A stretch of DNA of 36,995 nt, taken from Thiobacillus denitrificans DSM 12475 (GTDB taxonomy: Bacteria > Pseudomonadota > Gammaproteobacteria > Burkholderiales > Thiobacillaceae). Position numbers and translations under genes: made by a program. The notes below the pieces were generated by a model that ran no database searches, had not been told where the DNA came from, and saw only the letters and a list, made by a program, of their open reading frames with translations. The stretch spans positions 1 to 36,995 of the forward strand of contig NZ_AQWL01000014.1 in NCBI RefSeq assembly GCF_000376425.1. The letters are read 5' to 3'. This document shows positions 3,440 to 28,600 of the stretch, piece after piece (the stretch's first letter is position 1; each line of letters begins with the position of its first letter).

Positions 3440-3512
3440 ATTTCACTCCCAGCAATGAGTCGATGGTCAAAATGACCACGGTCACCCTTGCAAATCAGAA
3501 TTGAGGGACACC
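3440..3512 (-). promoter_or_regulatory. Conserved leader element L1
   Basis: Reading the minus strand: CCCTCAA, 7 nt, TTGCAAGGGTGACC, then hairpin GGTCA-TTT-TGACC (3465-3477), then the ribosome-binding site TGGGAG and ATG 3439. It begins right after the T-run of the terminator 3522-3550; no separate promoter is visible. Confidence 0.6.
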
Positions 3513-3521
3513 AAAAAATAA

Positions 3522-3550
3522 TGCCCCGCTGCACACGGCAAGTCGGGGCA
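3522..3550 (-). terminator. Intrinsic terminator of the 4244 gene (conserved-loop family)
   Basis: Outer stem TGCCCCG / CGGGGCA, inner stem TGC/GCA, pentaloop CGUGU in RNA, followed by ATTATTTTTT on the minus strand. It lies 29 nt after the stop of the gene ending at 3579. Confidence 0.85.
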
Positions 3551-3578
3551 TGGAGGAAAATACCTCGGATTCAGGAGA

Positions 3579-4244
3579 TCAACCCTGGTGGAAAAGCACC
3601 CACGAGGCATTCAGCTTGCGGGCCAGATCCAGCACAGACTTGATTCTGGGGGGCGGTGGATCTTCGAAATTCTCGGCTTCACCATCTTTGAGCTTGCGCA
3701 CGTGCACCATGAATTCGAACACCCCGCCTTCCACATCGTTGCCCACATGAGCAAAACGACCAAAGGCTTCGATCCAGCGCCACTCCTCGAACGCGCGCGG
3801 GTCTTCATAGGTGCCCAAAATGTTGGTCATGTCGACTTCCATGACGCTCACGCTCGACACTGAGCCAAACGTTTGCGGCTGATTCCCCTCATATCGGTCC
3901 ATGTAGTCCAGGAACAACTGTGCCGAAGCCGGGCTGTCCAATGTGATCTGATTTGGCCATTCGATTTCGCCTACGCGAATCAGATCGAAGCATTCGTCCG
4001 GCATGACGCCCCGCATCGCGGCGGTGGGATAGGCGACAGCTGCTCGCCCGAAAGCGCACGCTACGCGATCCTCAGGATGCTGAAGGTTTTCGGCGCCATA
4101 AAGATTGCCCTCAAAGAAGCACAGCAACCGGTCGCGGTGGATAACACCAACGATCCCGCTGCCAGGCGCGATTTCCTGGTCGATGCGGCTGCCCGGGCGT
4201 GGTACCAGGATGACTGCCTTGTTGTGACGAAGTTGTTGTTCCAC
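3579..4244 (-). CDS. Hypothetical protein (221 aa)
   Basis: A 221-residue soluble protein. I chose GTG 4244 because AAAGGA lies 8 nt upstream; the frame is open further up, but that part only translates the leader. The N-terminal half is beta-rich with several Gly and Pro turns (VILVPRPGSRIDQEIAPGSG), and the C-terminal half is rich in acidic and aromatic residues (EDPRAFEEWRWIEAFGRFAH). A proline stretch EDPPPPRIKS precedes a short C-terminal helix. Single-gene unit: leader L2 in front, terminator behind. No family recognised. Confidence 0.7.
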   Translation of the reverse strand: MEQQLRHNKAVILVPRPGSRIDQEIAPGSGIVGVIHRDRLLCFFEGNLYGAENLQHPEDRVACAFGRAAVAYPTAAMRGVMPDECFDLIRVGEIEWPNQITLDSPASAQLFLDYMDRYEGNQPQTFGSVSSVSVMEVDMTNILGTYEDPRAFEEWRWIEAFGRFAHVGNDVEGGVFEFMVHVRKLKDGEAENFEDPPPPRIKSVLDLARKLNASWVLFHQG

Positions 4245-4332
4245 GATGGAATTCCTTTCATGAATATCAAGGCCGACGATCAGAATGACCACGTTCACCT
4301 TGTTTTGTGGATTGATAGACGCGGTGCCAGAA
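4245..4332 (-). promoter_or_regulatory. Conserved leader element L2
   Basis: Minus strand: TATCAATCC, then AACAAGGTGAACGT, hairpin GGTCA-TTC-TGATC with one G-T pair, GTCGGCCTTG, then AAAGGA and GTG 4244. Follows the T-rich tail of the terminator 4338-4369. Confidence 0.6.
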
Positions 4333-4337
4333 AGAAG

Positions 4338-4369
4338 AACCTCCACGGCACAAAGGGCACATGGAGGTT
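4338..4369 (-). terminator. Terminator of the 4968-4382 operon (conserved-loop family)
   Basis: Outer stem AACCTCC / GGAGGTT with inner GC pairs and a 6-nt loop CUUUGU in RNA; the minus-strand tail is TTCTTCTTTCT. Starts 13 nt after the stop codon of the gene ending at 4382. Confidence 0.75.
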
Positions 4370-4381
4370 ATGTCGGCTGGG

Positions 4382-4600
4382 CTACTCGAAGGCGTTGTCG
4401 CCCCACTCGTGCAGGTAGTAAGCGATGCCTTCATCGCTCAAGCCGGCGGAGAACAGGCGATGCCGAGCTCCCTCGATGTCACCATCGAAGAACAGCCGAT
4501 GGGCCTCTGTAACGGCTGCCTCATTTGCTGCGCGCGCCATTACGAGCCGGGATGCGCGAGCAGCGGGCGAGTGATACGCGACATATTCTTCCTGCGTCAT
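4382..4600 (-). CDS. Small hypothetical protein (72 aa)
   Basis: A 72-residue, mostly helical and Ala-rich protein starting at ATG 4600, overlapping the stop of the zinc-ribbon gene by 4 nt (ATGA). Segments AARASRLVMARAANEAAVTE and LSDEGIAYYLHEWGDNAFE suggest two or three helices. No signal peptide or membrane segment. The overlap implies co-translation with the upstream zinc-ribbon protein, so the two may act together. No family recognised. Confidence 0.65.
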   Translation of the reverse strand: MTQEEYVAYHSPAARASRLVMARAANEAAVTEAHRLFFDGDIEGARHRLFSAGLSDEGIAYYLHEWGDNAFE

Positions 4601-4968
4601 GTCAGTTCCTTCTGCGGTTCAACAGCGATCGGCTCTCCTTGGTCTTCCTTGTCTGCAAGAACGATGACGCCGTTGTCAAACACGGTCAGCATGCTGGCAT
4701 TGGGAACCCGTTCCATGAAAGCGTTGGCCACATCTTCATGCTTGGTGGCGGCCAGAACCTTGTAGCGACGACCTTGGAAAGTCACCATGGGCTGGCCGTA
4801 GTTCACGCCCGGCTTCCCATAGTTTTCTTTCAGCTCCTCAGCCGTCAGGGTTGACGCTTCGAAAGCCACACATTCCGCACAAATTCCGTAACCTGAATCC
4901 CGATTCCAGTGTTGCATCCACCTGCCGGCACCACCTCCGCAGACACAGCAATCAAGTGAAACGCTCAT
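4597..4968 (-). CDS. Zinc-ribbon hypothetical protein
   Basis: A 123-residue protein with an N-terminal zinc-ribbon: CCVCGGG and CAEC (C-x2-C, 21 residues, C-x2-C) in the first 35 residues. The rest forms a small alpha/beta domain with strand segments MVTFQGRRYKVLAATK and VFDNGVIVLAD. ATG 4968 is preceded by ACAAGGAG, 7 nt away. First gene of a two-gene unit with leader L3 in front and terminator 4338-4369 behind. The ribbon suggests nucleic acid or protein contact, but no family was recognised. Confidence 0.7.
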   Translation of the reverse strand: MSVSLDCCVCGGGAGRWMQHWNRDSGYGICAECVAFEASTLTAEELKENYGKPGVNYGQPMVTFQGRRYKVLAATKHEDVANAFMERVPNASMLTVFDNGVIVLADKEDQGEPIAVEPQKELT

Positions 4969-5052
4969 TTTTTACTCCTTGTACGAGGCCGACGGTCGGA
5001 ATGACCACGATCACCTTGCACTACACATTGGCCGACGCGGACCCAGAAAGAA
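4969..5052 (-). promoter_or_regulatory. Conserved leader element L3
   Basis: Minus strand: GGCCAATGTGTAGTGCAAGG, TGATCGT, hairpin GGTC-ATTCC-GACC, GTCGGCCTCGT, then ACAAGGAG and ATG 4968. It starts directly after the T-run of terminator 5055-5086. Confidence 0.6.
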
Positions 5053-5054
5053 AA

Positions 5055-5086
5055 AACCTCCAAGGTCACAAGGACACATGGAGGTT
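5055..5086 (-). terminator. Terminator of the sulfurtransferase gene (conserved-loop family)
   Basis: Outer stem AACCTCC / GGAGGTT, inner stem GTC/GAC, loop CUUGU in RNA, then TTTTTTCTTTCT. The GTC/GAC inner stem differs from the usual GC-rich one yet still pairs. Confidence 0.85.
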
Positions 5087-5092
5087 GTAGGG

Positions 5093-6889
5093 TTACGCAG
5101 CCAGAACCAGTTCCGTTTGGGCGGATTCGGTGGTGGCCTTGTGGTGCCAAGCCGTGCGAGCCTTGGGAGGCAGATCAGCGAAGCGCACTGACCTGGCGAG
5201 CAGGTCGTCGATGGAGTAGTCGACGGTCAGGCCGTGTTTAGATTTCCATGCCGTCCGTCTGAGGATCTCGTCGATCTTGGACGTCTGCCCGGAACCGATC
5301 TGGAGCGCCCCGAACTGTGCGTACCACTTGAACCCAGCAACGATTCCGCCGGGATTGTGGCCGTAACCGTCGCGATGCAGCCTGACCAGGTGGTCCAGTT
5401 CAAAGTCCACGATAAATGCAACGGATTCTTCGTTCATGGAGAACGTCGGGCCGGATGCCAGATCCCAGACCAGGCGGCCATCGGTGAGCGTTCGCAGCGG
5501 CGGTTGGCAGGGGCTGCCTTCCGTTAGCGACTCCCACAGGTGGTCTCTGAGTCCAGAGTCCATGAAGACCATGCTGTCCCGGTCGTCATCCCACTCCTTG
5601 CCGACATGGAAAAACCGCGCGGGTGGCATCGGTGTTTCAGGCACGGGATGAATCTCAGGGATGTCGTAGCGCACGCCGTTGTGAAACACGTCGACGTAGT
5701 CCACCACCGCGGAGAAGGGGTAGGCGAGACCGTTGATGGACCAATAGGCATCGATCAGGAAAAGCATCGACTCAGGCAGGATCCTGAACATCGGCGCGCG
5801 GCGCTCGCTATGCGCGAGGACCAGCTCGTCGTAGTCCAGCTGCAGCATGTAGCGGAGCAGGTCACGGATCATCGCGGGGTGATAGGTATCGGGCTCGATC
5901 GCCACATAGCCTTCACGGATTGTCCTGCCGACGTGGTGCCGCCGACTCCAGTCGTACCTGGTGTGCCGGATGAACTTGTTGAGCCTCAGCAGACCGCGCG
6001 CGTAGGCGTAGCGCTCGTCAAAGGCCACCATGTTCTCCAGCGACTTGTCGACCGCTTGCTGGCAGACGAAGCAGCCGTGGCGTGCACCGCAACCCCCCTT
6101 CTTGCGGGATTGGCCGCCTTCGTTGATGGCGCTGGCTACGATCGCACATCCCTGGCCTTCCGCGTGCGCGTAGATTCTGAAGCACTCCTTGAAGTCCGAG
6201 TAGTGCTCGCCAGAGGCACCAGCGGTGCCGAGATGTTCCCACACGTCGTCATCCGTCCACATCGAGATGGGGCTTAATACCAGGTCGCCATCCTTGTTGC
6301 GGACAGGCAGCATGGCGTTCTCACCGCGCAGTTTCATGTGCAGGGCACGTCGCTCCGACTCGTCGAAGCGTGTACCCAGACAGGTCACAGACGGCGGGCA
6401 GCCATCCGTCTCGATGGTCTTGAAGATCTGCTTGCGCAGGCGACGCTGAGGTTCGACCTTAAGATCAATGCTACAGTCGGTCGAGGTACCCGCAAATGAC
6501 GGTATGCCGCGCCCTGTCAGGATTTTCGCCTGCCAGGTCGAGAGGTCGTGCGGCTCCGCGATTCCGAGGATGACCTCGAACCCGTGTTGTCGTCCCCAGC
6601 GCACCATCTTTTCCATCTCGCCGCGCGCATAAGCGGCTACCTCTGGGTTTTCCACGCGCGTGTCGGAGTGAGTCAGCGCCACGACAGGTTTTCCGCCGGC
6701 CGCGACAACTTCCTTGGCCGCTTGGAACACCAGCGTAACTACGCACGATGAGTCCTTGCCGCCGCTGTACGCGATGACAATGGGATAGCGTTGGTTGAAA
6801 AGACCGACCAGGGTATCCACGGCCTTCCTCACTCGCACGAAGACGGGCACGGTAAGGTCTACGACACTGAACAAATCAAATTGGCTCAT
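5093..6889 (-). CDS. DndC-like / PAPS-reductase-family sulfurtransferase
   Basis: A 598-residue protein. The N-terminal PAPS-reductase domain has the PP-loop IAYSGGKDSSCVVTLVF (residues about 38-54), which binds and adenylates a substrate. Cys residues in TDCSIDLK and the cluster GGCGARHGCFVCQQAVDKS match the arrangement by which DndC holds an iron-sulfur cluster (RFGCWTCTVV in DndC). DndC inserts sulfur into the DNA backbone in phosphorothioation systems. No dndB, dndD, dndE or cysteine desulfurase lies nearby, and the C-terminal 250 residues do not resemble DndC, so the substrate (DNA, tRNA or nucleotide) is unknown. Start ATG 6889 follows AGGAG; the frame extends upstream only through leader L4. 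Single-gene unit, with operator 6976-6997 upstream. Confidence 0.8.
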   Translation of the reverse strand: MSQFDLFSVVDLTVPVFVRVRKAVDTLVGLFNQRYPIVIAYSGGKDSSCVVTLVFQAAKEVVAAGGKPVVALTHSDTRVENPEVAAYARGEMEKMVRWGRQHGFEVILGIAEPHDLSTWQAKILTGRGIPSFAGTSTDCSIDLKVEPQRRLRKQIFKTIETDGCPPSVTCLGTRFDESERRALHMKLRGENAMLPVRNKDGDLVLSPISMWTDDDVWEHLGTAGASGEHYSDFKECFRIYAHAEGQGCAIVASAINEGGQSRKKGGCGARHGCFVCQQAVDKSLENMVAFDERYAYARGLLRLNKFIRHTRYDWSRRHHVGRTIREGYVAIEPDTYHPAMIRDLLRYMLQLDYDELVLAHSERRAPMFRILPESMLFLIDAYWSINGLAYPFSAVVDYVDVFHNGVRYDIPEIHPVPETPMPPARFFHVGKEWDDDRDSMVFMDSGLRDHLWESLTEGSPCQPPLRTLTDGRLVWDLASGPTFSMNEESVAFIVDFELDHLVRLHRDGYGHNPGGIVAGFKWYAQFGALQIGSGQTSKIDEILRRTAWKSKHGLTVDYSIDDLLARSVRFADLPPKARTAWHHKATTESAQTELVLAA

Positions 6890-6962
6890 GATGAAGCTCC
6901 TGTAAAGGCCGACACTCACAACGAGTACGTTCACCTTGCAGAAAGCATTGACTGACACGGAT
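6890..6962 (-). promoter_or_regulatory. Conserved leader element L4
   Basis: Minus strand: CAGTCAATGC, TTTCTGCAAGGTGAACGT, hairpin ACTC-GTTGT-GAGT, GTCGGCCTTT, then ACAGGAG and ATG 6889. Here the leader follows an operator region rather than a terminator, which shows it is part of the transcript. Confidence 0.65.
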
Positions 6963-6975
6963 TGCTACTAACAAT

Positions 6976-6997
6976 GATAGTGCAATATTGCACTATC
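6976..6997. promoter_or_regulatory. 22-bp perfect palindrome, operator for the sulfurtransferase / S1 intergenic region
   Basis: A perfect inverted repeat with core GTGCAATATTGCAC flanked by GATA and TATC. The same core occurs at 8617-8634 inside a clear promoter, so both are read as binding sites of one repressor. It lies between the divergent genes starting at 6889 and 7120. The exact -35/-10 elements here are not clear; TATCAT on the minus strand just after the palindrome is one candidate -10. Confidence 0.75.
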
Positions 6998-7119
6998 TTA
7001 CAGCTCAAAAACCGCCCCATTTCAAGCCCATTTCAAACTCGGGCCCGCGCGCTGCGCCGGTCTCCGGGAAGTTTTCGGCGCTTTATCGTCCTATGCGTTG
7101 TTATAAGATTGGGCGCATC

Positions 7120-8241
7120 ATGAGATTTTTTGAAAACCTATTCAGCTTCGCTGCTCCAGAGGCAGCTCCACAGGCCGTTTCGTCGTCCATGACTGACAAC
7201 CATGATTTCTGGGTCGACCTCGAAGAGGCCGCGCAAAAACACACACTGGTTCCATGCGAGGTCCTGTGGGCCAACCAGTATGGCGTGCTCGTCACCTATC
7301 ACGGGATTGAGACCTACGTCGGACGCAGGTATCTGGGTCTGGAACCTGGCCAGGACCACCGGGATCTGGTTGGCAAGACCCTGAAGTTCGCCGTGCGTAC
7401 CGCCTCCCGGCGAGGCAAGCTGCTGCTCACGCGCCAACCTGTCACCGCAGCCGAGAAGCGGGTGGCCATAAAGCGCAAACTGGAAAACATCACCTTGGGC
7501 GAGGAGGTCGGCGGCCAGGTCATCGAGGTTCGCCAGATGAAGGTCATCGTGCGACTCGACGAATACCCGGACGCCAAGGCGGTCATCAATCGCACCAGTC
7601 TTCGCCGGCGCTTCATCGCCGACATGGCCGAAGAATTCGCGGTGGGAGATGAGGTGGACGCTATCGTCACCGGCACGCAGCCTGGCCGTGGGACCATCTA
7701 CATCTGCCCGATGGAACACATGCTGGACCCGTGGGAGAGCATCGGCGAGCATTTCCAGGTCGGCCAGATCGTGGACGGCACCATTACGACGTGCACCAAG
7801 TACGGCGTGTTTGTGGAACTCTTGTCTGGGGTCACCGGCCTCGTCCGATCGCATGACCTCGACTGGAACCGGGTGGATTCAGCGACGTTCGGCCAGAAGG
7901 GCGATCCGATCCGTGTAAAAGTCATGAGCATTGACGCCCAGAGCCGTAAGATCTCGCTCTCCCGCAAGGATACGATGCATGACCCCCGCAAAGACTTTGC
8001 AGCCAACCACAAGGCGGGCGACCAGGTCGAGGGAACGGTTGCCAACATCACGGATTTCGGCATCTTCGTCGAGGTCGGGGACGGCGTTCAGGGTCTCTTG
8101 CATGCCAATGAACTGCACCTCGACCCGGACAGCGATCACAAGGCTTTCATGGAATCGAACCACCCCACCGGCAGCAAGATCAGGGTGCGGATACTGTCGA
8201 TCGAAAACGAAGGCGCCAGGATCGGCCTGGCTCCGGTGTGA
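7120..8241 (+). CDS. S1-domain RNA-binding protein (ribosomal S1-like)
   Basis: A 373-residue protein with about four S1/OB repeats: about residues 30-105 (YGVLVTYHGIETYVG), 120-200 (degenerate), 205-280 (GQIVDGTITTCTKYGVFVEL ending RKISLSRK) and 290-373 (EGTVANITDFGIFVEVGDGV). The last two are the most canonical. Ribosomal S1 has six repeats and captures mRNA on the 30S subunit; this shorter, plasmid-style paralogue should bind RNA. ATG 7120 was chosen at MRFFENLFSF; there is no Shine-Dalgarno (GGGCGCATC), and a TATAAG at 7102-7107 would give a very short 5' end. A start at 7189 is possible. It is followed 24 nt later by an HU gene. With so many structured leaders nearby it is a candidate trans factor for them (inference). 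Confidence 0.85.
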   Translation: MRFFENLFSFAAPEAAPQAVSSSMTDNHDFWVDLEEAAQKHTLVPCEVLWANQYGVLVTYHGIETYVGRRYLGLEPGQDHRDLVGKTLKFAVRTASRRGKLLLTRQPVTAAEKRVAIKRKLENITLGEEVGGQVIEVRQMKVIVRLDEYPDAKAVINRTSLRRRFIADMAEEFAVGDEVDAIVTGTQPGRGTIYICPMEHMLDPWESIGEHFQVGQIVDGTITTCTKYGVFVELLSGVTGLVRSHDLDWNRVDSATFGQKGDPIRVKVMSIDAQSRKISLSRKDTMHDPRKDFAANHKAGDQVEGTVANITDFGIFVEVGDGVQGLLHANELHLDPDSDHKAFMESNHPTGSKIRVRILSIENEGARIGLAPV

Positions 8242-8265
8242 AGTGCCAACTTGAGGAGAACTACC

Positions 8266-8562
8266 TTGAACAAGTCTGAATTCATCGATGCAGTTGCCGC
8301 CAAGGCGGACACCAGCAAGGCTACGGCGGCTCGCGCTGTCAATGCGGCCATCGAACTCATCGGCGAAACCTTGGCAAAAGGTGACGCAGTGGCCCTGGTC
8401 GGCTTTGGCACGTTCGAAGCTCGCAAGCGCGCGGCCCGGACCGGCAAGAACCCCGCAACCGGTGCGTCCATCAAGATTCCGGCGACCACCGTGCCCGCCT
8501 TCAAGGCAGGCAAGGGACTGAAGGACCAGGTGGCAGCCGGCAAAAAGGGCAAGAAAAAGTAA
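8266..8562 (+). CDS. HU-family DNA-binding protein (second copy)
   Basis: A 98-residue HU protein starting at TTG 8266 (LNKSEFIDAVAAKADTSKAT), with ribosome-binding site GAGGAG 7 nt upstream; the frame also has an upstream start that lacks one. The beta-arm GFGTFEARKRAARTGKNPAT and C-terminal PAFKAGKGLKDQVA are canonical, followed by a lysine-rich tail (GKKGKKK). Cotranscribed with the S1-like gene and ended by the terminator at 8581-8600. It is closer to chromosomal HU-beta than the copy at 1095, so the two may form heterodimers or serve different steps. Confidence 0.95.
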   Translation: MNKSEFIDAVAAKADTSKATAARAVNAAIELIGETLAKGDAVALVGFGTFEARKRAARTGKNPATGASIKIPATTVPAFKAGKGLKDQVAAGKKGKKK

Positions 8563-8580
8563 TTTTCCGACTGAACCCAG

Positions 8581-8600
8581 ACCCGGAAAAACGGCCGGGT
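8581..8600 (+). terminator. Terminator after S1/HU operon
   Basis: ACCCGG / CCGGGT stem with an 8-nt loop, followed by TTTTATTT; 18 nt after the HU stop codon. Confidence 0.8.
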
Positions 8601-8610
8601 TTTATTTGCG

Positions 8611-8639
8611 TTGACATGGTGCAATATTGCACCAACAAT
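8611..8639 (+). promoter_or_regulatory. Promoter with operator in the spacer (TGCAATATTGCA)
   Basis: A consensus -35 TTGACA (8611-8616), 17-nt spacer and -10 AACAAT (8634-8639). The spacer is almost entirely a perfect palindrome (8617-8634, core GTGCAATATTGCAC), identical in its core to the one at 6976-6997. A protein bound there would block RNA polymerase. The predicted transcription start falls on the ATG at 8646. Confidence 0.8.
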
Positions 8640-8645
8640 TGCGGC

Positions 8646-8885
8646 ATGAGGACAATCAAGGTATGCATTCCACAGCCAGGCTGGAAACGGGATGGAGATG
8701 TCGACTACTTGTTGGCGTATCCCGATCCGCCGACATGCGTGATCAAGGCTGGAGTGCGTGTTCGTGACATCAATACCGATGAGCCGTTTGCCATCCATAG
8801 CTTTCAGGCGACGGACAAAGGCCTAGTTGTGGTGAACGCCAACGACGATTTGTGGGCACGCGTTGATGAGGTGAAGTTGGCATGA
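8646..8885 (+). CDS. Small hypothetical protein from a probable leaderless mRNA
   Basis: A 79-residue protein from ATG 8646 (MRTIKVCIPQPGWKRDGDV). An in-frame ATG at 8616 overlaps the -35 box and is unlikely to be transcribed. The -10 box ends 7 nt before ATG 8646, so the message would begin at or near the start codon with no Shine-Dalgarno. The protein is beta-rich (IHSFQATDKGLVVVNAND) and has no membrane part. It overlaps the HTH gene by 4 nt (ATGA), suggesting it works with, or modulates, that regulator. No family recognised. Confidence 0.7.
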   Translation: MRTIKVCIPQPGWKRDGDVDYLLAYPDPPTCVIKAGVRVRDINTDEPFAIHSFQATDKGLVVVNANDDLWARVDEVKLA

Positions 8886-9097
8886 TCGAGGTCGACAACG
8901 GCTTGCAACTTCGTGAGCTCATCGCTAACTCCGGACTGACACAGGCCGAGGCGCTCGCCCGTTTCAATCGTGGCCAGGCCAAGCCGATGGCCTTGCGTAC
9001 TCTGAAGTCCTATCTGGCCAAGCCGGACGCATCGACGCGGGTGAGCTGTCCGGATACGGTGATTGCCAGGATGAAGAAGGTTCTTCCGCAGCGCTAG
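8882..9097 (+). CDS. Small helix-turn-helix protein, probable repressor
   Basis: A 71-residue protein whose core (LRELIANSGLTQAEALARFN, then MALRTLKSYLAKPDASTRVS) looks like a Cro/CI-type helix-turn-helix followed by a PD-containing segment (CPDTVIARMKKVL). The C-terminal regulator gene at 20241 has the same order: GL..., R-T-F/L, a short helix ending W/Y-L, PD-x-S, R-x-PD-x-V. The two are likely distant paralogues. Its own promoter carries a palindrome, which also occurs at 6976-6997, so autoregulation and control of the sulfurtransferase and S1 genes is a fair inference. No DNA-binding evidence beyond sequence pattern. Confidence 0.7.
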   Translation: MIEVDNGLQLRELIANSGLTQAEALARFNRGQAKPMALRTLKSYLAKPDASTRVSCPDTVIARMKKVLPQR

Positions 9098-9234
9098 GCG
9101 AGCGCTGGCTCTTTGACGCTCCGTTGGGGCGGCTTTGCGGTCGTGCCGCCCACGCAAACGATTCCATCGGCATAATCAAGGGGTTTGCCACTTGCCAGTT
9201 TGATGAAGCGGCCCGTCTTATCTGCTTGTTCACT
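9094..9234 (-). pseudogene. Possible small degenerate CDS without start codon
   Basis: On the minus strand the frame 9234-9094 encodes a coherent 46-residue stretch (DKTGRFIKLASGKPLDYADG, IVCVGGTTAKPPQRS) ending in TAG, but it has no ATG, GTG or TTG before an upstream stop. It may be a decayed gene. The stop codon overlaps that of the HTH gene. The 9098-9344 region otherwise holds only antisense frames; a plus-strand ATG at 9255 with GAGGAG runs antisense into the SRAP gene and is not called. Confidence 0.3.
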
Positions 9235-9344
9235 TCAATGCTTCGAGGAGATTGATGGCTATCAGCTTCCGTTCCTTTGGAAGCACTCGAAATGCCCGCG
9301 AGCTTCTGAACCTCTTCAGCTACGTCTTCGATACTCGTTGTGTC

Positions 9345-10028
9345 TCAGCAATTGAGACAATCCGTCAAGGGTTCAATCGGTTCGATCAGGTCTGCATTAT
9401 CGTCGACAGTCTTGCTGACTCGACGGCTGACCGGCCAGGCCTGCATGGGCTCGGCGTCATACGGTTCGATCATGCTTTGCACTTCATCAGCCGGCGCATT
9501 CAGCCAGGCCTGCCAGTCTTCTGGCCGGAGGATGACCGGCATCCGATCATGAATTGTCGTCATCACTTCGTTGGGCCCGGTGGTAATGATGCAGGACGTA
9601 CGGAGAATCTCGCCATTCGGCCCGCGCCAGCTCTCCCATAACCCGCCCATGGCCAGCGGCTCGCCCGACTTCAGGCTGATGTAGTAAGGCTGCTTCACCC
9701 GTCCTTCGGTTTTCCATTCGTAGAAACCATCCGCCGGGATGATGCAGCGCCGGCGCTTGAAGGCATCGCGGAAGGACGGTTTCTCGGCCACGGTCTCCCC
9801 GCGTGCATTGTTGAGCTTGCTGCCGATCGACGGATCTTTGGCCCAGTGGGGCACCAAACCCCAGCGCAGCAGGTGAAGAACTCGCTTGCCTTCCGGGGAC
9901 TGCCGAATCACTGGAATATCGGTGCCCGGAGGAATGTTGTAGTGCGGGCCGAAGTCCGCGACTTCATCAAGGTCGAAGTGCTCTTTCAGCTTCGCCGGCG
10001 TCTGCTTGAGTACGTAGCGTCCGCACAT
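9345..10028 (-). CDS. SOS response-associated peptidase (SRAP, YedK/HMCES-like)
   Basis: A 227-residue protein starting MCGRYVLKQT at ATG 10028; the Cys at position 2 becomes the N-terminal nucleophile after Met removal. Other conserved active-site segments are NNARGETV (Asn), GFYEWK (Glu) and TIHDRMPVIL (His). SRAP proteins form a covalent thiazolidine link with abasic sites in single-stranded DNA and protect them from breakage. The stop of the nuclease gene shares a base with this start (TAATG), so the two are coupled. Facing UmuDC across one operator, it belongs to a DNA-damage or single-strand DNA protection block. Full family length. Confidence 0.95.
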   Translation of the reverse strand: MCGRYVLKQTPAKLKEHFDLDEVADFGPHYNIPPGTDIPVIRQSPEGKRVLHLLRWGLVPHWAKDPSIGSKLNNARGETVAEKPSFRDAFKRRRCIIPADGFYEWKTEGRVKQPYYISLKSGEPLAMGGLWESWRGPNGEILRTSCIITTGPNEVMTTIHDRMPVILRPEDWQAWLNAPADEVQSMIEPYDAEPMQAWPVSRRVSKTVDDNADLIEPIEPLTDCLNC

Positions 10029-10534
10029 TATGGCTGCCCCATGCGGGCTTCGCGTTTCATTTTGCGCCAGGTCCAAGGGGCTACCGGCTCGGGCTCGGCC
10101 CAGAGGCCGCGTCTGGCATTGCGGGCATCCAGTTCCGCCTGCGCATAGCGCAGACGGTCCTCGAGGGTCTGTTCATTCTGGTAATCCTTGTAGTGCCACG
10201 CCATCCCGTCGGCCACCTGAGCGAGGTTGGCGTCCCGGCCGTCCACCATGATCTTGCCGACCAGCCGGCCGTAGCGGTCATGTTTCTGCCACTCCACGGT
10301 GACGGTCCGGCGATAGACCCGGTCCGAAAGGGCTTCTTTTGATTTCTGGCCCCATGGCATCCCTTTCTCAGGCGCATCGATGCCGGCCAGCCGGATCTTG
10401 TGCTGCACCCGCTGGGCATCCAGCACGGTCACCGTATCACCGTCAGCCAAACCGACGACTTCCCCCACCAGGGTTTCGGCCTGCGTCAGGGAGACCACGG
10501 CCAGAAGGGAAAATATCGCCAACCCGATTTTCAA
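10028..10534 (-). CDS. Exported thermonuclease (SNase family)
   Basis: A 168-residue Staphylococcal-nuclease-like protein. TTG 10534 is the start, with GGAG 9 nt upstream. Residues 1-19 form a signal peptide (MKIGLAIFSLLAVVSLTQA) with a likely cut after AxA-type TQA. The catalytic residues are all present: Asp in DGDTVTV, Arg/Asp/Glu in KIRLAGIDAPE, and the second Arg in DRYGRLVGK. The C-terminal region has the family's LRYAQAELDARNARRGLW motif. Such enzymes degrade DNA and RNA in the periplasm or outside the cell, with calcium. Coupled to the SRAP gene and driven by a promoter that overlaps that of umuD. Confidence 0.93.
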   Translation of the reverse strand: MKIGLAIFSLLAVVSLTQAETLVGEVVGLADGDTVTVLDAQRVQHKIRLAGIDAPEKGMPWGQKSKEALSDRVYRRTVTVEWQKHDRYGRLVGKIMVDGRDANLAQVADGMAWHYKDYQNEQTLEDRLRYAQAELDARNARRGLWAEPEPVAPWTWRKMKREARMGQP

Positions 10535-10579
10535 TTCGATTGCTCCGGCTATAATTTGAAATGTGTAACACTATTCAAA
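10528..10579. promoter_or_regulatory. Overlapping divergent promoters with a shared 25-bp palindromic operator
   Basis: Plus strand: TTTTCA (10528-10533), 16 nt, TATAAT (10550-10555). Minus strand: TTGAAT (10578-10573), 17 nt, ATTATA (10555-10550). The two promoters thus share one -10 hexamer. The palindrome TTTGAA-N2-GTGT-N-ACAC-N2-TTCAAA (10555-10579) fills the minus-strand spacer and covers the plus-strand start point. It is not the CTGT-N8-ACAG LexA box. Confidence 0.75.
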
Positions 10580-11169
10580 CAGACATGGGAAGTGGCGGCA
10601 AACGCGAGGGCACAGGCCCCAAGTCCAGCCCCGGGCCATACGGCGAGGCAACCAAGGTGATGCGTATTCCAGTCAGCCGGATAGACGATGTCCGCGCCTA
10701 TCTCTCCCAGCCCCAGGCCATCATGGCACAGGCTGGCGGCAACGTGGAGTGGCTCGGGCCGGCCTCCCGGTCAGGTCCGGCTGTCCGGCTGCCGCTGTTC
10801 GCCGCCCGCGTGCCGGCGGGTTTCCCGTCGCCGGCCGAGGATTATGCCGAAGGTCATCTCGACCTCAACGAATTCCTGGTCGAGCACGAGGCCGCGACCT
10901 TCTATGTCCGGGTCCAGGGCCACTCGATGAACGGCGCCGGCATCCTCGATGGCGACGTCATCGCCGTGGACCGGGCCCTGGAGGCGCGGCATGGCGACAT
11001 CGTGCTAGCGGTCATCGACAACGAGCTGACGGTGAAGGAACTCTATCGCCAGAGCGGGCAGGTCAGGCTGCTCCCCAGCAATCCGGAATACTCGCCGATC
11101 GAGATCAAGCCCGGCCAGGAGCTGACCATCTGGGGCGTGGTAAAGGGCGTCGTTCGCAAGCTGCGATGA
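10561..11169 (+). CDS. umuD: UmuD-like translesion polymerase accessory protein
   Basis: A LexA/UmuD-type serine peptidase (S24). The cleavage site is the AG pair in [14 protein letters not shown], the catalytic Ser is in [15 protein letters not shown] and the Lys in [10 protein letters not shown]. RecA filaments trigger self-cleavage at this site, and the product joins UmuC to form polymerase V. The protein is longer than E. coli UmuD because of a basic N-terminal extension ([14 protein letters not shown]) before the cleavage site. Start is uncertain: ATG 10561 sits 6 nt after the -10 box (leaderless), while ATG 10585 would leave a short leader. It overlaps umuC by 4 nt. Confidence 0.92.
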
Positions 11170-12464
11170 GCCAGGGCATGCAGTACGCCCTGGTCGACGG
11201 CAACAACTTCTACGTCAGCTGCGAACGGGTTTTCAATCCCAAACTGGAGAATCGGCCGGTCATCGTCCTTTCGAACAACGACGGCTGCGCAGTGGCACGG
11301 AGTGAAGAGGCCCGTGCCCTGGGTATCAAGATGGGGGAACCCCATTTCCAGGTGCGGGACCTTCTGAGGCGGCATCGCGGAGTGGCGCTCTCCTCGAACT
11401 ACACCCTCTATGCCGACATGAGCCGGCGCATGATGTCGGTGATCAGCCAGTTCTCTCCGGAGCAGGAGATCTACAGCATCGACGAGTCCTTCCTGCGCTT
11501 CCGGGGCTTCGACCACTGGAACTTGACCGGGGAGGGCATTCGCCTGCGCCACCAGGTTCACCAGTGGACCGGTATCCCGGTCGGGGTGGGGTTCGGGCCG
11601 ACGAAGACTCTGGCCAAGCTGGCGAACAGGCTGGCCAAGCGTCATCCTGATTTTCGGCAGATCGGGGTCTGCAACCTGCAGGATCTGGCGCCCTGGCAGC
11701 AGTGGCGCTACCTGGCGGAGGTCGACGTCGGGGACATCTGGGGCATCGGGCCGCGCTGGGCAAGAAGCCTGCGCGAACATGGGATTCTGACTGCGATGGA
11801 TCTGAAGCTGGCCAATCCCGAGACCTTGCGGAGCCGCTTCAACGTGGTGATGGAACGTACGATCCGTGAGCTGAACGGGATTCCCTGCATTCCCCTCGAA
11901 GAGGCGCCGCCCGCCAAACAGCAGATCGTGTCCTCGCGAAGCTTCGGTCATCTGGTGACCAGGATGCAGGATCTGCTGGAAGCGGTGTCGAGCTATGCGG
12001 CAACCGCAGGACGCAAGCTTAGGCAGGAAGGCGAGGTGGCAGGCGGCATCCAGATATTCCTGCAGACCAATCCGTTCATCCCGAACGAACCGCAATACCA
12101 CCCAGCCGTGCTGATCCGCTTCAACACGCCGACCCACGACACCGCACGGCTGATCCAGGCTGCCCGCCAGGGCATGACGCGGATCTACCGCAAGGAATTT
12201 CGCTACAAGAAGGCTGGGGTGATGCTGGTCGATCTGAAACCAGTCGGTGTCAGCCAGGGTGATCTGTTCCAGCAGGAGCCGGAGGCCCAGACCGAGCGCC
12301 GGACACGCCTGCTGAGCGTGATGGATGCGATCAATTCAGAGATGGGGAAAGGGACGCTTCGCTTTAGCGCCGAGGGCGTGGGGCAATCCTGGAAGATGCG
12401 GCGAGGGAATCTGACGTCGCACTTTACGACGGCGTGGGCGGGGTTGCCGGTGGTAGGTAATTAG
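11166..12464 (+). CDS. umuC: UmuC-like Y-family DNA polymerase V subunit
   Basis: A 432-residue Y-family polymerase starting at ATG 11166 (ATGA overlap with umuD). The first catalytic Asp is in [17 protein letters not shown] and the second acidic pair in [10 protein letters not shown]; the [17 protein letters not shown] helix-hairpin-helix and the little-finger region with a C-terminal DUF4113-type end ([24 protein letters not shown]) complete the family pattern. With cleaved UmuD it copies damaged DNA with low fidelity. Mobile elements often carry such pairs to survive damage during transfer. It is preceded by umuD and faces the minus-strand terminator at 12520-12551; no terminator of its own is clear. 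An upstream open frame inside umuD is a shadow. Confidence 0.95.
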
Positions 12465-12519
12465 ATGGCGATTACGCCATGGTATCAATTTGGGGATAAC
12501 AAGATTGGGGGGACAAAAA

Positions 12520-12551
12520 AAAGCCCGATCGCACATGGCGAAGCGGGCTTT
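12520..12551 (-). terminator. Terminator of the 13720 gene (conserved-loop family)
   Basis: Outer stem AAAGCCCG / CGGGCTTT, inner stem CGC/GCG, loop CAUGU in RNA, followed by eight T on the minus strand. It may also slow plus-strand transcription from umuC. Confidence 0.85.
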
Positions 12552-12583
12552 AGTGGGTAAGTGGAGACCCACGATTTGCTGAA

Positions 12584-13720
12584 TTACTGCACGGGAGGCA
12601 GGTTCAGTGCAGATGCAATTGCATCGTCAAGCGCTTCTTCAGCCCACTCTTGGCCGACAAAGCCCCAGCAGGAGTCCTTTTCGACGATTGTCTGTGTCTT
12701 GATATCTATCGCGTAACAGATAAATCCCCAGCAATCGCCTGCAAGCCATGAATTGTACGACTCAAGCACCTGATGGGCGTACTCTCTTGCCGCGGCTTCC
12801 CGTGCGGCCTCGATGGAACGCGTTACCTCGACCTCCAGTTGCTGCAGAAAGTCGAAAGCCTCATGCCAGTGCTCGAAGCTGGGATGCTTGACGTCCGCGT
12901 AGAACGTCATGCCTTCCTTGCCAAGGCTTAGCGTCTCGACTGTGTAGCGCCGATTGGACCGGGTCTTGCGGTTATCCACGACGCGACCCTTGGTGTAGAC
13001 GGGGGCACGGCGTTTCAGGATCTCGTCACGAGCGACGTCGTCTGGAACCCACAAGGCACCGCCGGTGGTCGTGTCCCATGCACATTGGTATCCGGTGCCA
13101 GATACTGACAGCACCATGCCGCTGTGCTCATACACGTCCAACAGGACGGCCAGCATGTCGCCGATCGTACCTGCCTGCCTGCACGCGTGCCACGCCTCTT
13201 CGAGCAGCTTTTCCCAGTCGAACTCGGCAAAATTAGCCTTGTCTTCATCGGAAAACTCGACCCAACTGCATCGATAACCCTGGATTTCGTTGAGGATGTC
13301 AGTCCGCAACTGGTTCACGGTTACGCCGTATCGAGCTGCCTCCATCTCCATACAGACCGCGGTGTTTGCTTCGGGATAGAGGCGTTTGCGCAGCATATCC
13401 TCAGCCATTGATTCAACCACGCCAAGATTGGTATTGCGGCGATAGTCGCTGTCCAGACCTAGAGCCTCCTGATAGCGATGTTGGCTTTCCCGGTCTCCGC
13501 GGCGGCCAGCGAAATAGATGGCTCCTTCGCCGTCACTGCTTTCCAGAGGGCTTTCACAGTCATCATCACGTACGAGCCCCGCATAAACTGCGATCTTTCC
13601 GTCCGGAGAGTAGACCGTCCGGACCGACTCTTCAGGTTTGGTCAAAACATGGTCGAATAGGCTGGCAATAATGCCGCCATCATCTTCTTGAATAACGCTT
13701 TTCGTTGATGAATACATCAC
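12584..13720 (-). CDS. Hypothetical protein (378 aa) with C-terminal CWGF repeats
   Basis: A 378-residue soluble protein, mostly acidic. ATG 13720 has AAGGAG upstream. The C-terminal 55 residues contain a double-aromatic pattern, SWLAGDCWGFICYAID and EKDSCWGFVGQEWAEEAL; short proteins with an xSCWGFxG motif are frequent on phages and plasmids, but I cannot name a function. The central part (EEAWHACRQAGTIGDMLAVL) is helical, and the N-terminal part is charged and probably flexible. Single-gene unit with leader L5 and its own promoter, ending in a conserved-loop terminator. It might be an anti-defence or regulatory protein; this is a guess from context. Confidence 0.75.
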   Translation of the reverse strand: MMYSSTKSVIQEDDGGIIASLFDHVLTKPEESVRTVYSPDGKIAVYAGLVRDDDCESPLESSDGEGAIYFAGRRGDRESQHRYQEALGLDSDYRRNTNLGVVESMAEDMLRKRLYPEANTAVCMEMEAARYGVTVNQLRTDILNEIQGYRCSWVEFSDEDKANFAEFDWEKLLEEAWHACRQAGTIGDMLAVLLDVYEHSGMVLSVSGTGYQCAWDTTTGGALWVPDDVARDEILKRRAPVYTKGRVVDNRKTRSNRRYTVETLSLGKEGMTFYADVKHPSFEHWHEAFDFLQQLEVEVTRSIEAAREAAAREYAHQVLESYNSWLAGDCWGFICYAIDIKTQTIVEKDSCWGFVGQEWAEEALDDAIASALNLPPVQ

Positions 13721-13790
13721 ATCTCCTTACGCATACGCGCCATCCGACGGGATGACTCCGACGTTGCAGGGAGAGTTGAGGCTCATGGGA
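13721..13790 (-). promoter_or_regulatory. Conserved leader element L5
   Basis: Minus strand: GAGCCTCAACTCTCCCTGC, AACGTCGGAGT, hairpin CATCC-CGTC-GGATG, GCGCGTATGCG, then TAAGGAG and ATG 13720. The promoter at 13826-13854 would start transcription about 30 nt before it, so the whole element is in the mRNA. Confidence 0.65.
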
Positions 13791-13825
13791 TAGGAAGCCA
13801 CCGCCACATCGCCTCGGGAATTGCC

Positions 13826-13854
13826 TAGTAAACTTGGGGGCTGTCGAAATCCAA
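13826..13854 (-). promoter_or_regulatory. Promoter for the 13720 gene
   Basis: Minus strand TTGGAT (13854-13849), 17-nt spacer, TTACTA (13831-13826). Predicted start near 13819, giving a 5' leader of about 100 nt that contains L5. Confidence 0.5.
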
Positions 13855-13876
13855 TAACCACCGTCCAGAAGGGACC

Positions 13877-14041: not shown

Positions 14042-14051
14042 TCGAGGTGAA

Positions 14052-14723: not shown

Positions 14724-14747
14724 GGCACTCTGATCGGAAATAAAAAA

Positions 14748-17668: not shown

Positions 17669-17692
17669 CGTCCTACGAAGTCTTCTTCTTCG

Positions 17693-18076: not shown

Positions 18077-18282
18077 TCAGATTTCGTTGCCGGGTCGATC
18101 ACGTTGAAAGCCACCCAAGCGGACACGGCGACCGTGCTTGCCGTGCCAAACGCCAGCTGGGCACCCGGCGGGAAGTCGCCCGCCTTCGCTTCTGGGAAGT
18201 GCTCGCCGATCGTGGCCCAGAACGCTGCTTCCGCGGCCTCGGCTGCGAGTTGCGTACGGACGGTCAAAGATTCTTCAGCCAT
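18073..18282 (-). CDS. Small hypothetical protein (69 aa)
   Basis: ATG 18282 has GGGAGG 7 nt upstream; the frame can also start at TTG 18288. The 69 residues are Ala-rich and helical (TQLAAEAAEAAFWATIGEHF), with a hydrophobic C-terminal stretch (LAFGTASTVAVSAWVAFNVI) that may be a weak membrane helix. It sits 2 nt after the upstream stop and overlaps the DUF3268 gene by 4 nt, so it is surely part of the operon. No family recognised. Confidence 0.7.
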   Translation of the reverse strand: MAEESLTVRTQLAAEAAEAAFWATIGEHFPEAKAGDFPPGAQLAFGTASTVAVSAWVAFNVIDPATKSE

Positions 18283-25990: not shown

Positions 25991-26287
25991 TCATCGCCAA
26001 CGCGGCGCAACGCCAAGAACGCTGCCAGCGCGCCGATTCTTGATGCACAAGGCGGCCTGATGGGCTTCTTCGATTGTCGTGAAGGATGCGACCTCGTCAC
26101 GGCGCTCGCCCGGTTCTAGGATGCGGCCGTTTTTCCCCAAAGGGCGGTCGTCGGCAGTCCCCCCAAAGAAGGGATCGCCCGTTCCAAGGAACTCGATCAC
26201 GGCCATCTCCTTTGGCAGGCACGGCCACCTTGCCTTGTATTGCTCAACCCAGGCGGGGTCCTCGAGTCCAATGTGAGAGTTGCTCAT
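25991..26287 (-). CDS. Small hypothetical protein (98 aa)
   Basis: ATG 26287 with GCAAGGAG 9 nt upstream. The 98-residue protein has an N-terminal GLEDPAWVEQYKARWPCLPK segment, a strand with EMAVIEFLGTGDPFFGGTAD, and a C-terminal FTTIEEAHQAALCIKNRRAG helix. This arrangement is common in small proteins of plasmids and phages, but no family was recognised. First gene of the unit with leader L9. Confidence 0.65.
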   Translation of the reverse strand: MSNSHIGLEDPAWVEQYKARWPCLPKEMAVIEFLGTGDPFFGGTADDRPLGKNGRILEPGERRDEVASFTTIEEAHQAALCIKNRRAGSVLGVAPRWR

Positions 26288-26907: not shown

Positions 26908-26986
26908 AAATCTCCTTTCTGCCATCACCAAAGCAAGTGGCATCGGCCTTGTGTGGCCAGGCTAAATTCAACCGTTGACTCTATTG

Positions 26987-27352
26987 CTACCAGGCCATGC
27001 TTTGGCTACTGCCAAGCTGGTCAGGTAACACCTTTTCACCATGCCGGCTCGTCACAAAACAGACCGAACCACCGTCCATTTCAATCCCGGAAATTGAACC
27101 ATCCAGATCCTGAACATCCTTGGCGACGAATGACTCGACGACGCCCTTGGCGGTTTTATAAGTCACCGTTACCGGAAACATGTTTCGCACCTTTCCGAGA
27201 TACCAAGATGGACCGGGCAGCCTAGTCGTGGCCCATTTTGTAAGTTTGTGTGCTCTGGGGACATTCACCATTGCTAAAAACCAGCAAGTAGCCAGCAATA
27301 GCAATTCAGCGATCGCTCCAAACGGAAGTAAAGCCAAGCGTAAATTCCGCAT
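26987..27352 (-). CDS. Membrane-anchored hypothetical protein (121 aa)
   Basis: ATG 27352 with AAGGAGAAC upstream. An N-terminal helix (LLPFGAIAELLLLATCWFLA) anchors it; the remainder is a small beta-rich domain (FPVTVTYKTAKGVVESFVAK, VQDLDGSISGIEMDGGSVCF). The leader before it contains a CCTG/CAGG hairpin, but CTCAA and GCAA boxes are not clear. First gene of a run of three membrane proteins. No family recognised. Confidence 0.65.
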   Translation of the reverse strand: MRNLRLALLPFGAIAELLLLATCWFLAMVNVPRAHKLTKWATTRLPGPSWYLGKVRNMFPVTVTYKTAKGVVESFVAKDVQDLDGSISGIEMDGGSVCFVTSRHGEKVLPDQLGSSQSMAW

Positions 27353-27536
27353 GTTTGTTCTCCTTCAATTAGTGATTACCTGAAACTCATCCAGGGCGCC
27401 AAAAGACTTCGCAATGAAATTTGCATATCTTCATGTCGATGGGCAAAACTCTCAATTGTGCCCGGCACATGTCGATATAGGCCGGGTTTTCGAGGCTGGG
27501 CGTGTTCTGCATGATGGCTTGTCCCATGATGTTTCA

Positions 27537-28070
27537 TCAGGCTTTACCGCTCTCGATGCAAGCCGCAAGGCATCGTGCGAACTTGACGTATTCAGGGGAT
27601 TGCGATGCACTGGAACGAAGGCTATCGTAAGTCATCTCCCTCATGGCCTCGAGTTTCACACTTGCCTGGACTGCATCGAATCCGCACCCAAGGTTTGCTG
27701 TCGCGATTTTCTTCAGGAAAGCAAGAATGAAATGATCGAGCGCGTCCTTCGCTTCATTTGGCAGAATATCCAGCAGTACGCGGTTTGAAGCAAACAGCAC
27801 GTGGTCCAAATCCGCCTTGGTTGCGACGAGCGGCCCGAGAACGAAGTCCAGTGCAGAGTCGGCGCCTTCTAAATCACCGAAGGCAACGAATTGAAGTGGG
27901 CCATCTCGATCATGGATCACACACAACCGAGGCCGCCATTTGTACGCTGCTTGGCGTAAAGCAGATGGTCTTGAACGATCACTATCCCACCAGTTTGGGG
28001 AATAACGTTGAGGTGCAATTGAGACATCGCCCAAAGCACGACGTTGGTGGATTGCAGTAAGTCCTGTCAT
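27537..28070 (-). CDS. Hypothetical protein (177 aa)
   Basis: ATG 28070 with CCAGGAG 7 nt upstream. The 177 residues include a basic N-terminal region (SIAPQRYSPNWWDSDRSRPS), a hydrophobic strand CVIHDRDGPLQFVAFGDLEG and a helical C-terminal half with LDHFILAFLKKIATANLGCG. No motif was recognised. Single-gene unit after leader L10. Downstream, 27400-27536 holds an imperfect CCCGGC/GCCGGG hairpin without a T-run on the minus strand, and no further gene. Confidence 0.65.
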   Translation of the reverse strand: MTGLTAIHQRRALGDVSIAPQRYSPNWWDSDRSRPSALRQAAYKWRPRLCVIHDRDGPLQFVAFGDLEGADSALDFVLGPLVATKADLDHVLFASNRVLLDILPNEAKDALDHFILAFLKKIATANLGCGFDAVQASVKLEAMREMTYDSLRSSASQSPEYVKFARCLAACIESGKA

Positions 28071-28165
28071 GTTGTATCTCCTGGCAGCAGGCCGTCCTCG
28101 AAATGAGGGCGTTCACCTTGCCGTGAGAATTGTGGGACGCACGGGCATAAGCCAGGCCATGGGCA
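28071..28165 (-). promoter_or_regulatory. Conserved leader element L10
   Basis: Minus strand: GCGTCCCACAATTCTCACG, GCAAGGTGAACG, hairpin CCTC-ATTTC-GAGG, ACGGCCTGCTGC, then CAGGAG and ATG 28070. It follows the T-run of terminator 28171-28202 after about 25 nt. Confidence 0.6.
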
Positions 28166-28170
28166 AAAAA

Positions 28171-28202
28171 AATCCCCTAAGGCACGAGGCACAAAGGGGA
28201 TT
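28171..28202 (-). terminator. Terminator of the 28530 gene (conserved-loop family)
   Basis: Outer stem AATCCCCT / AGGGGATT, inner GC pairs, loop CUCGU in RNA, then eight T on the minus strand. Confidence 0.85.
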
Positions 28203-28245
28203 TTGCGTTAGACCGAACACAAGGATCGGAAAAACGGTACTGCGG

Positions 28246-28530
28246 TCAGGCGTTCAAGCCGACGACGTCGGATGTCGGACGCGCTTCCGGACTGCTCATG
28301 AAGGGTTGATACCCTTCAAGGTACGGATCTGCAACCGCCTCGTCGAGTTTCTCGCGTCCAAACCGGCACGCTTCGTCGAAGGTTCCTTCGACTTCTTCCT
28401 CGGCGTAGACCTTGTCTGCCCGGGTGACGACCATGAATCGATTATGGGTCGTTTCATAGATCGTGACGGATGGACGGGGAACGCCCATCAAAGCGCTTTT
28501 CAAAGCCTTCAGGTTCTTCTTGAGAGACAT
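28246..28530 (-). CDS. Small hypothetical protein (94 aa)
   Basis: ATG 28530 with TAGGAGG upstream. A basic N-terminal helix (MSLKKNLKALKSALMGVPRP), a strand pair (SVTIYETTHNRFMVVTRADK) and an acidic helix (FDEACRFGREKLDEAVADPY) followed by a Pro/Ser tail. Looks like a compact alpha/beta protein of unknown function. Single-gene unit with leader L11 and a conserved-loop terminator. Confidence 0.7.
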   Translation of the reverse strand: MSLKKNLKALKSALMGVPRPSVTIYETTHNRFMVVTRADKVYAEEEVEGTFDEACRFGREKLDEAVADPYLEGYQPFMSSPEARPTSDVVGLNA

Positions 28531-28600
28531 AGCAACCTCCTAAGGATCCAGGAACATCCTGGTTTCACGTTGCAGTTAGGATTGAGGCTCACGCCCTATG
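28531..28600 (-). promoter_or_regulatory. Conserved leader element L11
   Basis: Minus strand: GTGAGCCTCAATCCTAACTG, CAACGTGAAA, hairpin CCAGGA-TGT-TCCTGG, ATCC, then TAGGAGG and ATG 28530. It sits only about 30 nt after the stop of the 29403 gene, without a terminator between. Confidence 0.65.

Follow-up and report, generated by a model that had tools for sequence, protein, structure and literature searches.

What joins a set of unrelated genes that each begin behind a similar short stretch of predicted RNA structure? The question arose from a 36,995-nucleotide stretch of Thiobacillus denitrificans DSM 12475 (contig NZ_AQWL01000014.1, positions 1 to 36,995; hereafter the window, part of our contig C14 in a genome of 3.61 Mb), in which eleven minus-strand genes are each headed by a structured 5′ leader, L1 to L11. 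A first-pass annotation, made from the sequence alone, had proposed that the leaders form an undescribed cis-regulatory RNA class that ties these genes into one translational regulon. Here, we find that the leader family is real, structured and plasmid-wide. What the leaders do is a separate matter, and is weighed below against four other explanations.

The order of parts that had been claimed was read in all 11 leaders: a CCGTGTCCCTCAATTCT-like box ending in CAA, 6–10 nucleotides, an arm of the sequence GCAAGG or GCAACG (ACAAGG in L2), a bulged hairpin that reaches to the ribosome site, and then the start codon. The six pairs of hairpin arms named in the first-pass annotation were likewise all present. 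The hairpin begins with a helix, P1, whose 5′ strand holds the near-fixed GCAAGG/GCAACG; next comes, in many copies, a GAA-like bulge, and then a second helix, P2, whose arms covary. A repeat search without prior knowledge recovered 8 of the 11 leaders (repeat families D1, D2, D4 and D6).

Three structural classes were distinguished. In class A, GCAAGG(T) is followed by a short bulge such as GAA, by P2, and by CCT..GC, which closes P1 immediately upstream of the ribosome site. To this class belong L1 (3440–3513, heading the gene at 3170–3439), L2 (4245–4324; gene 3579–4244, with a GTG start), L3 (4969–5040; gene 4597–4968), L4 (6890–6960; PAPS-reductase-domain gene 5093–6889), L7 (16552–16625; gene 15907–16551), and L10 (28071–28142; gene 27537–28070), all, as with the leaders that follow, on the minus strand. 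Class B has GCAACGT, a four-base bulge, a hairpin that is CATCC/GGATG in most copies, and GCGTATGC; it comprises L5 (13721–13788; gene 12584–13720), L6 (15042–15112; gene 14787–15041) and L9 (26288–26359; gene 25991–26287). Class C, to which L8 (17598–17671; gene 17172–17597) and L11 (28531–28594; gene 28246–28530) belong, has GCAACG, a GAA-like bulge, a P2 with a TGT loop, and GTTGC downstream of the ribosome site, so that P1, as a GCAAC/GTTGC helix, closes over that site.

To follow the family through the genome, we used two covariance models, R1, built from four class A leaders (L2, L3, L4 and L7), and R2, built from 13 leaders drawn from contigs C12, C14, C15 and C17. With filters off, R1 gave 23 matches in the window, and the first ten ranks were all leaders: after the four training sequences came L10 (E 3e-10), L1 (1e-8), L6 (0.0025), L9 (0.013), L8 (0.15), and L11 (0.35), while L5 ranked twelfth (E 2.2). 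When R2 was run over the whole genome, with 150 of 1255 first-look candidates scored, all 28 matches at E<1 fell on the same four contigs, which make up 231.9 kb, or 6.4%, of the genome bases; 13 of the 28 are the model's own training leaders, and L8 and L11 match weakly (E 0.5 each). In all, more than 30 copies are now in hand on four contigs, namely 31 that were curated by model, regular expression and eye, and three found later (L030:1688-1758, L034:4395-4474 and L031:4501-4543; three-digit labels denote loci). Two of these three head open reading frames (ORFs) of merely 37 and 33 codons, and all three stand outside the 31-copy statistics, although L030:1688-1758 is counted among the 28 matches above and the 29 below. 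The list had first held 32 copies, from which L031:308 was removed as it has no start after the box; the automatically assigned start is wrong or doubtful in three of the 31 (L034:50, L039:969 and L035:9649), and all three were kept. Within the window, a probable decayed twelfth copy lies at 15514–15595 on the minus strand; it has the box and GCAAGG (R2 15.3 bits, E 0.15), without a start codon directly after its ribosome-like site. In locus L031, two divergent leaders, one per strand, share one short intergenic stretch (4501–4638).

The four contigs are probably parts of one conjugative megaplasmid, given that together they carry transfer genes and PRTRC partition genes, and that all four share the leaders. 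Among the proteins scanned (49 predicted from C12, and 60 together from the rest of C14, C15 and C17) were members of the TraC, TraG, TraH, TraF, TraN, TraK, TrbC, and TrbI families of F-type transfer, together with two PRTRC ParB matches, ParA-type ATPases and topoisomerase IV subunits.

The copies also hold a consistent location in the 5′ region of genes, as is the case for structured cis-regulatory RNAs. With ATG, GTG or TTG accepted as the start, a ribosome site and an ORF of 60 amino acids or more follow 27 of the 29 R2 matches on plasmid loci at E<=0.02, compared with 531 of 5000 random positions (10.6%). One of the two misses, L038:8644, in fact heads a gene of 648 amino acids, the start of which lies inside the match.

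Paired changes were counted per class in 26 of the 31 curated copies (13 in class A, seven in class B and six in class C), the other five differing in hairpin register. In class A, 21 cells were changed on both sides of the stem, compared with 7.4 ± 2.0 after shuffling (0/500 shuffles as high), a count that leans high because the leaders are paralogues, as do the other pair counts. In the same class, 88.5% of cells were paired against 77.8% in shuffles (0/500), the covariation score was 0.415 against 0.195 (0/500), and structures slid along the alignment reached at most 49% pairing. The six class C sequences gave 13 cells changed on both sides against 4.6 ± 1.9 (0/500), with an unremarkable number of pair types (53/500 shuffles). 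Despite the paralogy, the slid controls and a test of each P2 arm with its own or a swapped partner agree with these counts: own partners scored −10.95 and swapped ones −7.02 (p = 0.00005, n = 31), which is unchanged without the seven class B copies. P1 likewise shows paired change: in its inner part, the second pair is G-C in class A but C-G in class B, and A-U in two further copies. The covariation of the stem in classes A and C therefore exceeds both shuffled and slid controls, and the earlier statement that RNA structure, rather than DNA sequence, is kept holds for these two classes, class B being uninformative.

These results bear on an alternative in which the leaders are a DNA repeat multiplied without function, as the first-pass annotation had itself considered, or a site acting at the level of DNA (for a protein, or as a single-strand signal). 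Class B copies nearly identical in both P1 and P2, some terminator–leader units (repeat family D2), and the one probably decayed copy would suit that explanation in part. However, the arms covary in classes A and C, and nearly all strong matches lie at a ribosome site and start, so that covariation and position already disfavor it; we regard it as very improbable.

As had been claimed, the coding sequences behind the leaders are unrelated, since 27 headed proteins gave no mutual BLASTP match at 1e-3. Apart from the PAPS-reductase-domain protein behind L4, the headed products include PRTRC ParB, ribonucleotide reductase, a MoxR-like AAA protein, CobT/VWA, DUF3150, a recombination-directionality-like Gp3, HATPase, DUF4942, a YqaJ exonuclease, DUF1289, and a CbtA-like protein. 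SSB is not headed directly; a 37-codon ORF carries the leader, and SSB lies behind that ORF. Many headed proteins have no Pfam match, and those that do share no evident common pathway.

How might one RNA element serve so many unrelated genes? The explanation that we favor, tentatively and at a little short of an even chance, is that each leader is a cis-acting RNA element before a single gene, read by a shared trans-acting factor that would set approximately thirty genes together. Conservation in class A is highest in the 5′ arm of P1 (GCAAGG, 1.83 bits per position) and in the CAAYTCT box (1.23), followed by the two P2 arms (0.95 and 0.84) and the spacer (0.43). Recognition sites show this pattern, a constant arm combined with a stem that is free to vary, and the P1 arm with its bulge would then be the surface recognized by one factor. 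A trans-acting factor is favored because the leader locks its ribosome site no more than ordinary upstream regions do, and the factor would most likely be plasmid-encoded, because every copy found in the genome lies on the plasmid contigs. By binding beside the ribosome site, it could set the translation, or the decay, of all the headed messages together; repression on holding P1 would be most direct in class C, whose P1 closes over that site. Some of the headed genes, namely those for the exonuclease, PRTRC ParB, ribonucleotide reductase, MoxR and VWA proteins, and SSB behind its short leader ORF, suggest that the leaders may help to time functions of establishment or maintenance. In favor of a shared factor are the P2 covariation, the fixed position relative to ribosome site and start, the confinement to plasmid contigs and the unrelatedness of the genes, and also the finding, presented below, that the same core genes are leader-headed in other plasmids, where transfer genes give no signal. 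As for the factor itself, neither CsrA nor a FinO/ProQ-domain protein gave a match in the genome at E<=0.001, and the single NusG match lies on contig C24, with no second NusG-like protein on the plasmid contigs; if a protein reads the leader, it is thus probably none of these.

Several observations weigh against the idea of a shared factor. Opening the ribosome site costs 3.16 kcal/mol in the 31 leaders and 3.26 kcal/mol in 71 non-leader genes of the same contigs (p = 0.75), and pairing of the box with that site does not covary, so that the RNA by itself gives no sign of a switch. Of the first-pass interpretation, the kept pairing, the unrelated genes, the location at gene starts and the confinement to plasmid contigs have stood; the single translational regulon is still a proposal, and the leader leaves access to the ribosome site as it is in those non-leader genes. 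In class A, the ribosome-site columns (0.79 bits) and the outer box (0.78) are conserved no more than P2, and the seven class B sequences (L5/L6/L9 type) are almost invariant and add no structural evidence. All copies come from one genome, and no second replicon bearing this family was found in the samples searched. Finally, in 16 of the 28 leaders whose start is clear, the reading frame of the gene behind stays open through the leader, as against 33% of shuffles; the kinship of the copies may inflate this count. Judged from the sequence, some copies, such as L2, L4, L6, L7, and L9, where the gene's frame continues open on the upstream side, may have a coding role or provide an N-terminal extension; L1, which has an extra base, and L3, which by eye is out of frame, speak against a common leader peptide.

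The ribosome-site measurements also bear on a possible translational switch: the pyrimidine box that follows CAA would pair with the ribosome site in a closing helix outside P1, and this helix would open on a signal. In 22 of 31 leaders, the duplex between box and Shine–Dalgarno (SD) sequence is indeed stronger than the average over shuffled boxes (p = 0.002), with a pairing probability above 0.5 in 19 of 31, and leaders of other plasmids do lock the site, at 5.5–6.1 kcal/mol. Yet boxes pair alike with their own and with swapped SD sequences (p = 0.22, and p = 0.80 in another test), which also counts against a shared factor, and access to the SD is not below that of shuffles (p = 0.2) or of non-leader genes. 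A bistable leader that locks the SD as in the other plasmids was rejected on the p = 0.80 comparison and the opening costs given above, and a switch in general appears improbable.

A second RNA element is also repeated on the plasmid, a terminator-like hairpin whose arms vary while its apical GCCNNGTGC is fixed. There are 19 matches in 233,606 bases of loci, approximately 17 of them clean by eye, and one match, not clean, in 35,381 bases of other contigs. Seven lie in the window, all on the minus strand: at 2892–2900, at 3531–3539 directly upstream of L1, at 12531–12539, at 14758–14766 after the L6 gene, at 16647–16655 upstream of L7, at 28182–28190 upstream of L10, and at 36841–36849, the last four belonging to repeat family D3. 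Outside the window, they occur in loci L030, L031, L034, L035, and L038–L041. Several directly precede leaders, and some genes are therefore written as leader, ORF and terminator.

This arrangement is relevant to the next most probable explanation, which we nevertheless consider unlikely: that the leader is a standard 5′ module without regulation, the hairpin shielding the mRNA 5′ end and insulating the ribosome site, and that it spread in terminator–leader units for even expression of acquired genes in many hosts. Such a module would account for ribosome-site access equal to that of other genes, for the joint copying of terminator and leader in repeat family D2, and for the T-run that often ends approximately 15–25 nucleotides upstream of the leader. 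A plain stabilizing hairpin would, however, need neither the near-fixed 5′ arm of P1 nor the CAAYTCT box, and the GCAA arm and the box are common to all three structural classes.

The terminators also lead to a further possibility, that the leader is a transcription element whose RNA causes RNA polymerase to pass the terminators between genes, in the manner of put of phage HK022 or conAn2 of pLS20. Hairpins with apical GCCNNGTGC separate several genes, which leaves scant space for a promoter ahead of the leader. On the other hand, antitermination requires neither one leader per gene nor a fixed spacing to the ribosome site, and the genome has just the one NusG, on a different contig. We consider this slightly less probable still than the switch.

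The first-pass annotation had placed promoters or operators before L4 and L5. Upstream of L4, an operator-like palindrome is present (6976–6997), but promoters were not confirmed: a simple scan of positions 3300–18200 gave one minus-strand site (10868–10841), which is not at a leader, and simple sigma-70 scans showed no excess of promoters (5 against 4.7). The L4 palindrome is built around GTGCAATATTGCAC, as is a second at 8617–8634, which sits inside a promoter-like site on the plus strand (8611–8639); the sequences suggest that the two are likely operators of one regulator. Operator-like palindromes also occur directly upstream of two leaders in locus L030, at 1097–1134 (GGCATAAGC..GCTTATGCC) and 6465–6481 (AAGCAGTGCTGCTGCTT).

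Is the leader already known from elsewhere? The window gave no match to Rfam 15 at the gathering cut-off and, at E<=1, only an unrelated suhB match (29513–29579). Six further leader-bearing loci (L030, L031, L034, L038, L039, and L041) were also without a match, the scan having left out L032, L035, L037, and L040; as far as Rfam is concerned, the class is thus undescribed in the window and in these six loci. No real copy was found in relatives sampled with R1 (101 genomes) or R2 (399 genomes of the order and 118 of the family), in overlapping samples that each count the source genome and under stricter filters that lose weak matches. The single matches elsewhere (three with R1, and five with R2, one of which recurred in the family search) lacked, by eye, the arrangement of box, arm, ribosome site and start. 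R2 was also run against the complete records of four related plasmids, those of Rhodoferax (NC_007901), Polaromonas (NC_007950), and Comamonas (CP079746) and pMOL30, where it gave 10 matches at E<=5 (best 0.023); four were inspected, and none is a leader. Over 11 stretches of other plasmids, it gave one match (E 0.13), by eye not a leader, and the class B pattern had no match in viral contigs. On pMOL30, two neighboring genes (L048:14880-14982 and 16900-17000) have a common leader of the form CTGATCT.CAT..TTCT.GCAAGG ... ATCAGGAGC, possibly a distant relative to judge by its sequence. A 2017 paper on RNA motifs reportedly named motifs after DUF3085, DUF3268 or DUF3577. In the literature searched, as titles and the starts of abstracts, we found no description of the leader element, motifs bearing these three names having been compared through Rfam only.

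Large plasmids of other bacteria nevertheless proved informative. Those of Pseudomonas (NZ_CP017294 and NZ_CP047313), Aeromonas (NZ_KT033470), Methylomonas (NZ_CP014361), and Alcaligenes (NZ_KY623659) share the MoxR, DUF3150, exonuclease, and VWA genes, and by eye, many or most of the core genes listed, which were hand-chosen from annotation tables, carry a leader of a different type. It reads AACCC..GGGG..CCCC..GGGG, followed by a CTCC arm that pairs with the ribosome site. The exonuclease, MoxR, DUF3150, and VWA genes carry leaders of the present family in the T. denitrificans plasmid, and by eye the same four are leader-headed in both the Pseudomonas and the Aeromonas plasmids, and partly so in those of Methylomonas and Alcaligenes, where the Alcaligenes MoxR and ssb genes cannot be judged at their annotated starts. 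In the Pseudomonas plasmids, ssb and recT are also leader-headed by eye.

Arms were again compared with their own and with swapped partners, in eight stretches. The ribosome-site arm was significant (p<0.05) in six, the exceptions being NZ_CP047313 and pMOL30, and the upstream arm in six, the exceptions being an Aromatoleum plasmid and pMOL30; a third comparison was negative in all eight. Such a signal was absent both from 35 transfer genes, taken from four of these plasmids (p = 0.58 and 0.66), and from the 71 non-leader genes of the T. denitrificans plasmid contigs (p = 0.89 and 0.80). Pair counts in fixed columns were weak for the Pseudomonas-type leaders, with 74.3% of cells paired (21/500 shuffles as high), 11 changes on both sides against 6.6 (7/500), and slid structures nearly as good; this family rests on the swap test and its two negative controls. 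The opening cost of 5.5–6.1 kcal/mol was measured in three stretches, and Rfam had no match in three (L085, L086 and L046). The families with a self-locking ribosome site lie in loci L085, L086, L088, L089, and L091. Plasmid 1 of Aromatoleum EbN1 (L090), a PRTRC plasmid, has a further style of leader, GCAT..CTCC..TGCAG..AGGAG, after terminators.

It is conceivable, if on balance doubtful, that every large conjugative plasmid uses an RNA leader code of its own on its core genes (for establishment and maintenance), and not on its transfer genes. Unrelated designs, a bulged hairpin in the present plasmid and self-locking double hairpins in those of Pseudomonas, Aeromonas, Methylomonas and Alcaligenes, would then have arisen for the same task. 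Such a code would set when core genes are translated after entry or establishment, acting through a plasmid-encoded factor or through the RNA itself. This cross-plasmid pattern is the more novel part of our findings, and is short of proof. If the pattern is true, a leader family common to exonuclease, ParB, ribonucleotide reductase, and MoxR/VWA genes would offer a directly testable handle on an open question, namely how the early genes of a plasmid, those not concerned with transfer, are switched in the recipient.

How do the leaders compare with known systems? In the translational operators of CsrA/RsmA and of coat proteins, a hairpin at the ribosome site is bound by a protein, and in the case of CsrA several mRNAs answer to one factor. 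The T. denitrificans leaders resemble these in having a hairpin at the ribosome site, but differ in that this genome has no CsrA match. Phage HK022 and pLS20 offer put RNA and conAn, which are, similarly, RNA elements on mobile DNA with an effect on the expression of many genes, although they work on termination; conAn stands at the start of one long operon (PMC8955417). The leaders of the Pseudomonas, Aeromonas, Methylomonas, and Alcaligenes plasmids are alike in gene set, and differ in sequence and in their locked ribosome site. The closest parallel in kind is radC RNA (RF01754), a known leader (listed in a table of PMC2864571) that is likewise structured and found repeatedly beside several genes of a mobile element. 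It differs in sequence, however, and its structure is larger (149 positions). RF01754 has no match in the window. Contig C1 of the same genome carries two radC RNAs (L003:387-543 and 1905-2053) beside a DUF3085 gene, and R2 has no match to that locus at E<=5. The start that follows one of the two presumably belongs to a DUF3577 gene. Multi-copy leaders of mobile elements are thus a kind already known, radC RNA being an example; if a shared factor does read the T. denitrificans leaders, they would represent one RNA module before many unrelated genes, with its factor to be found, and with different families on the same genes elsewhere.

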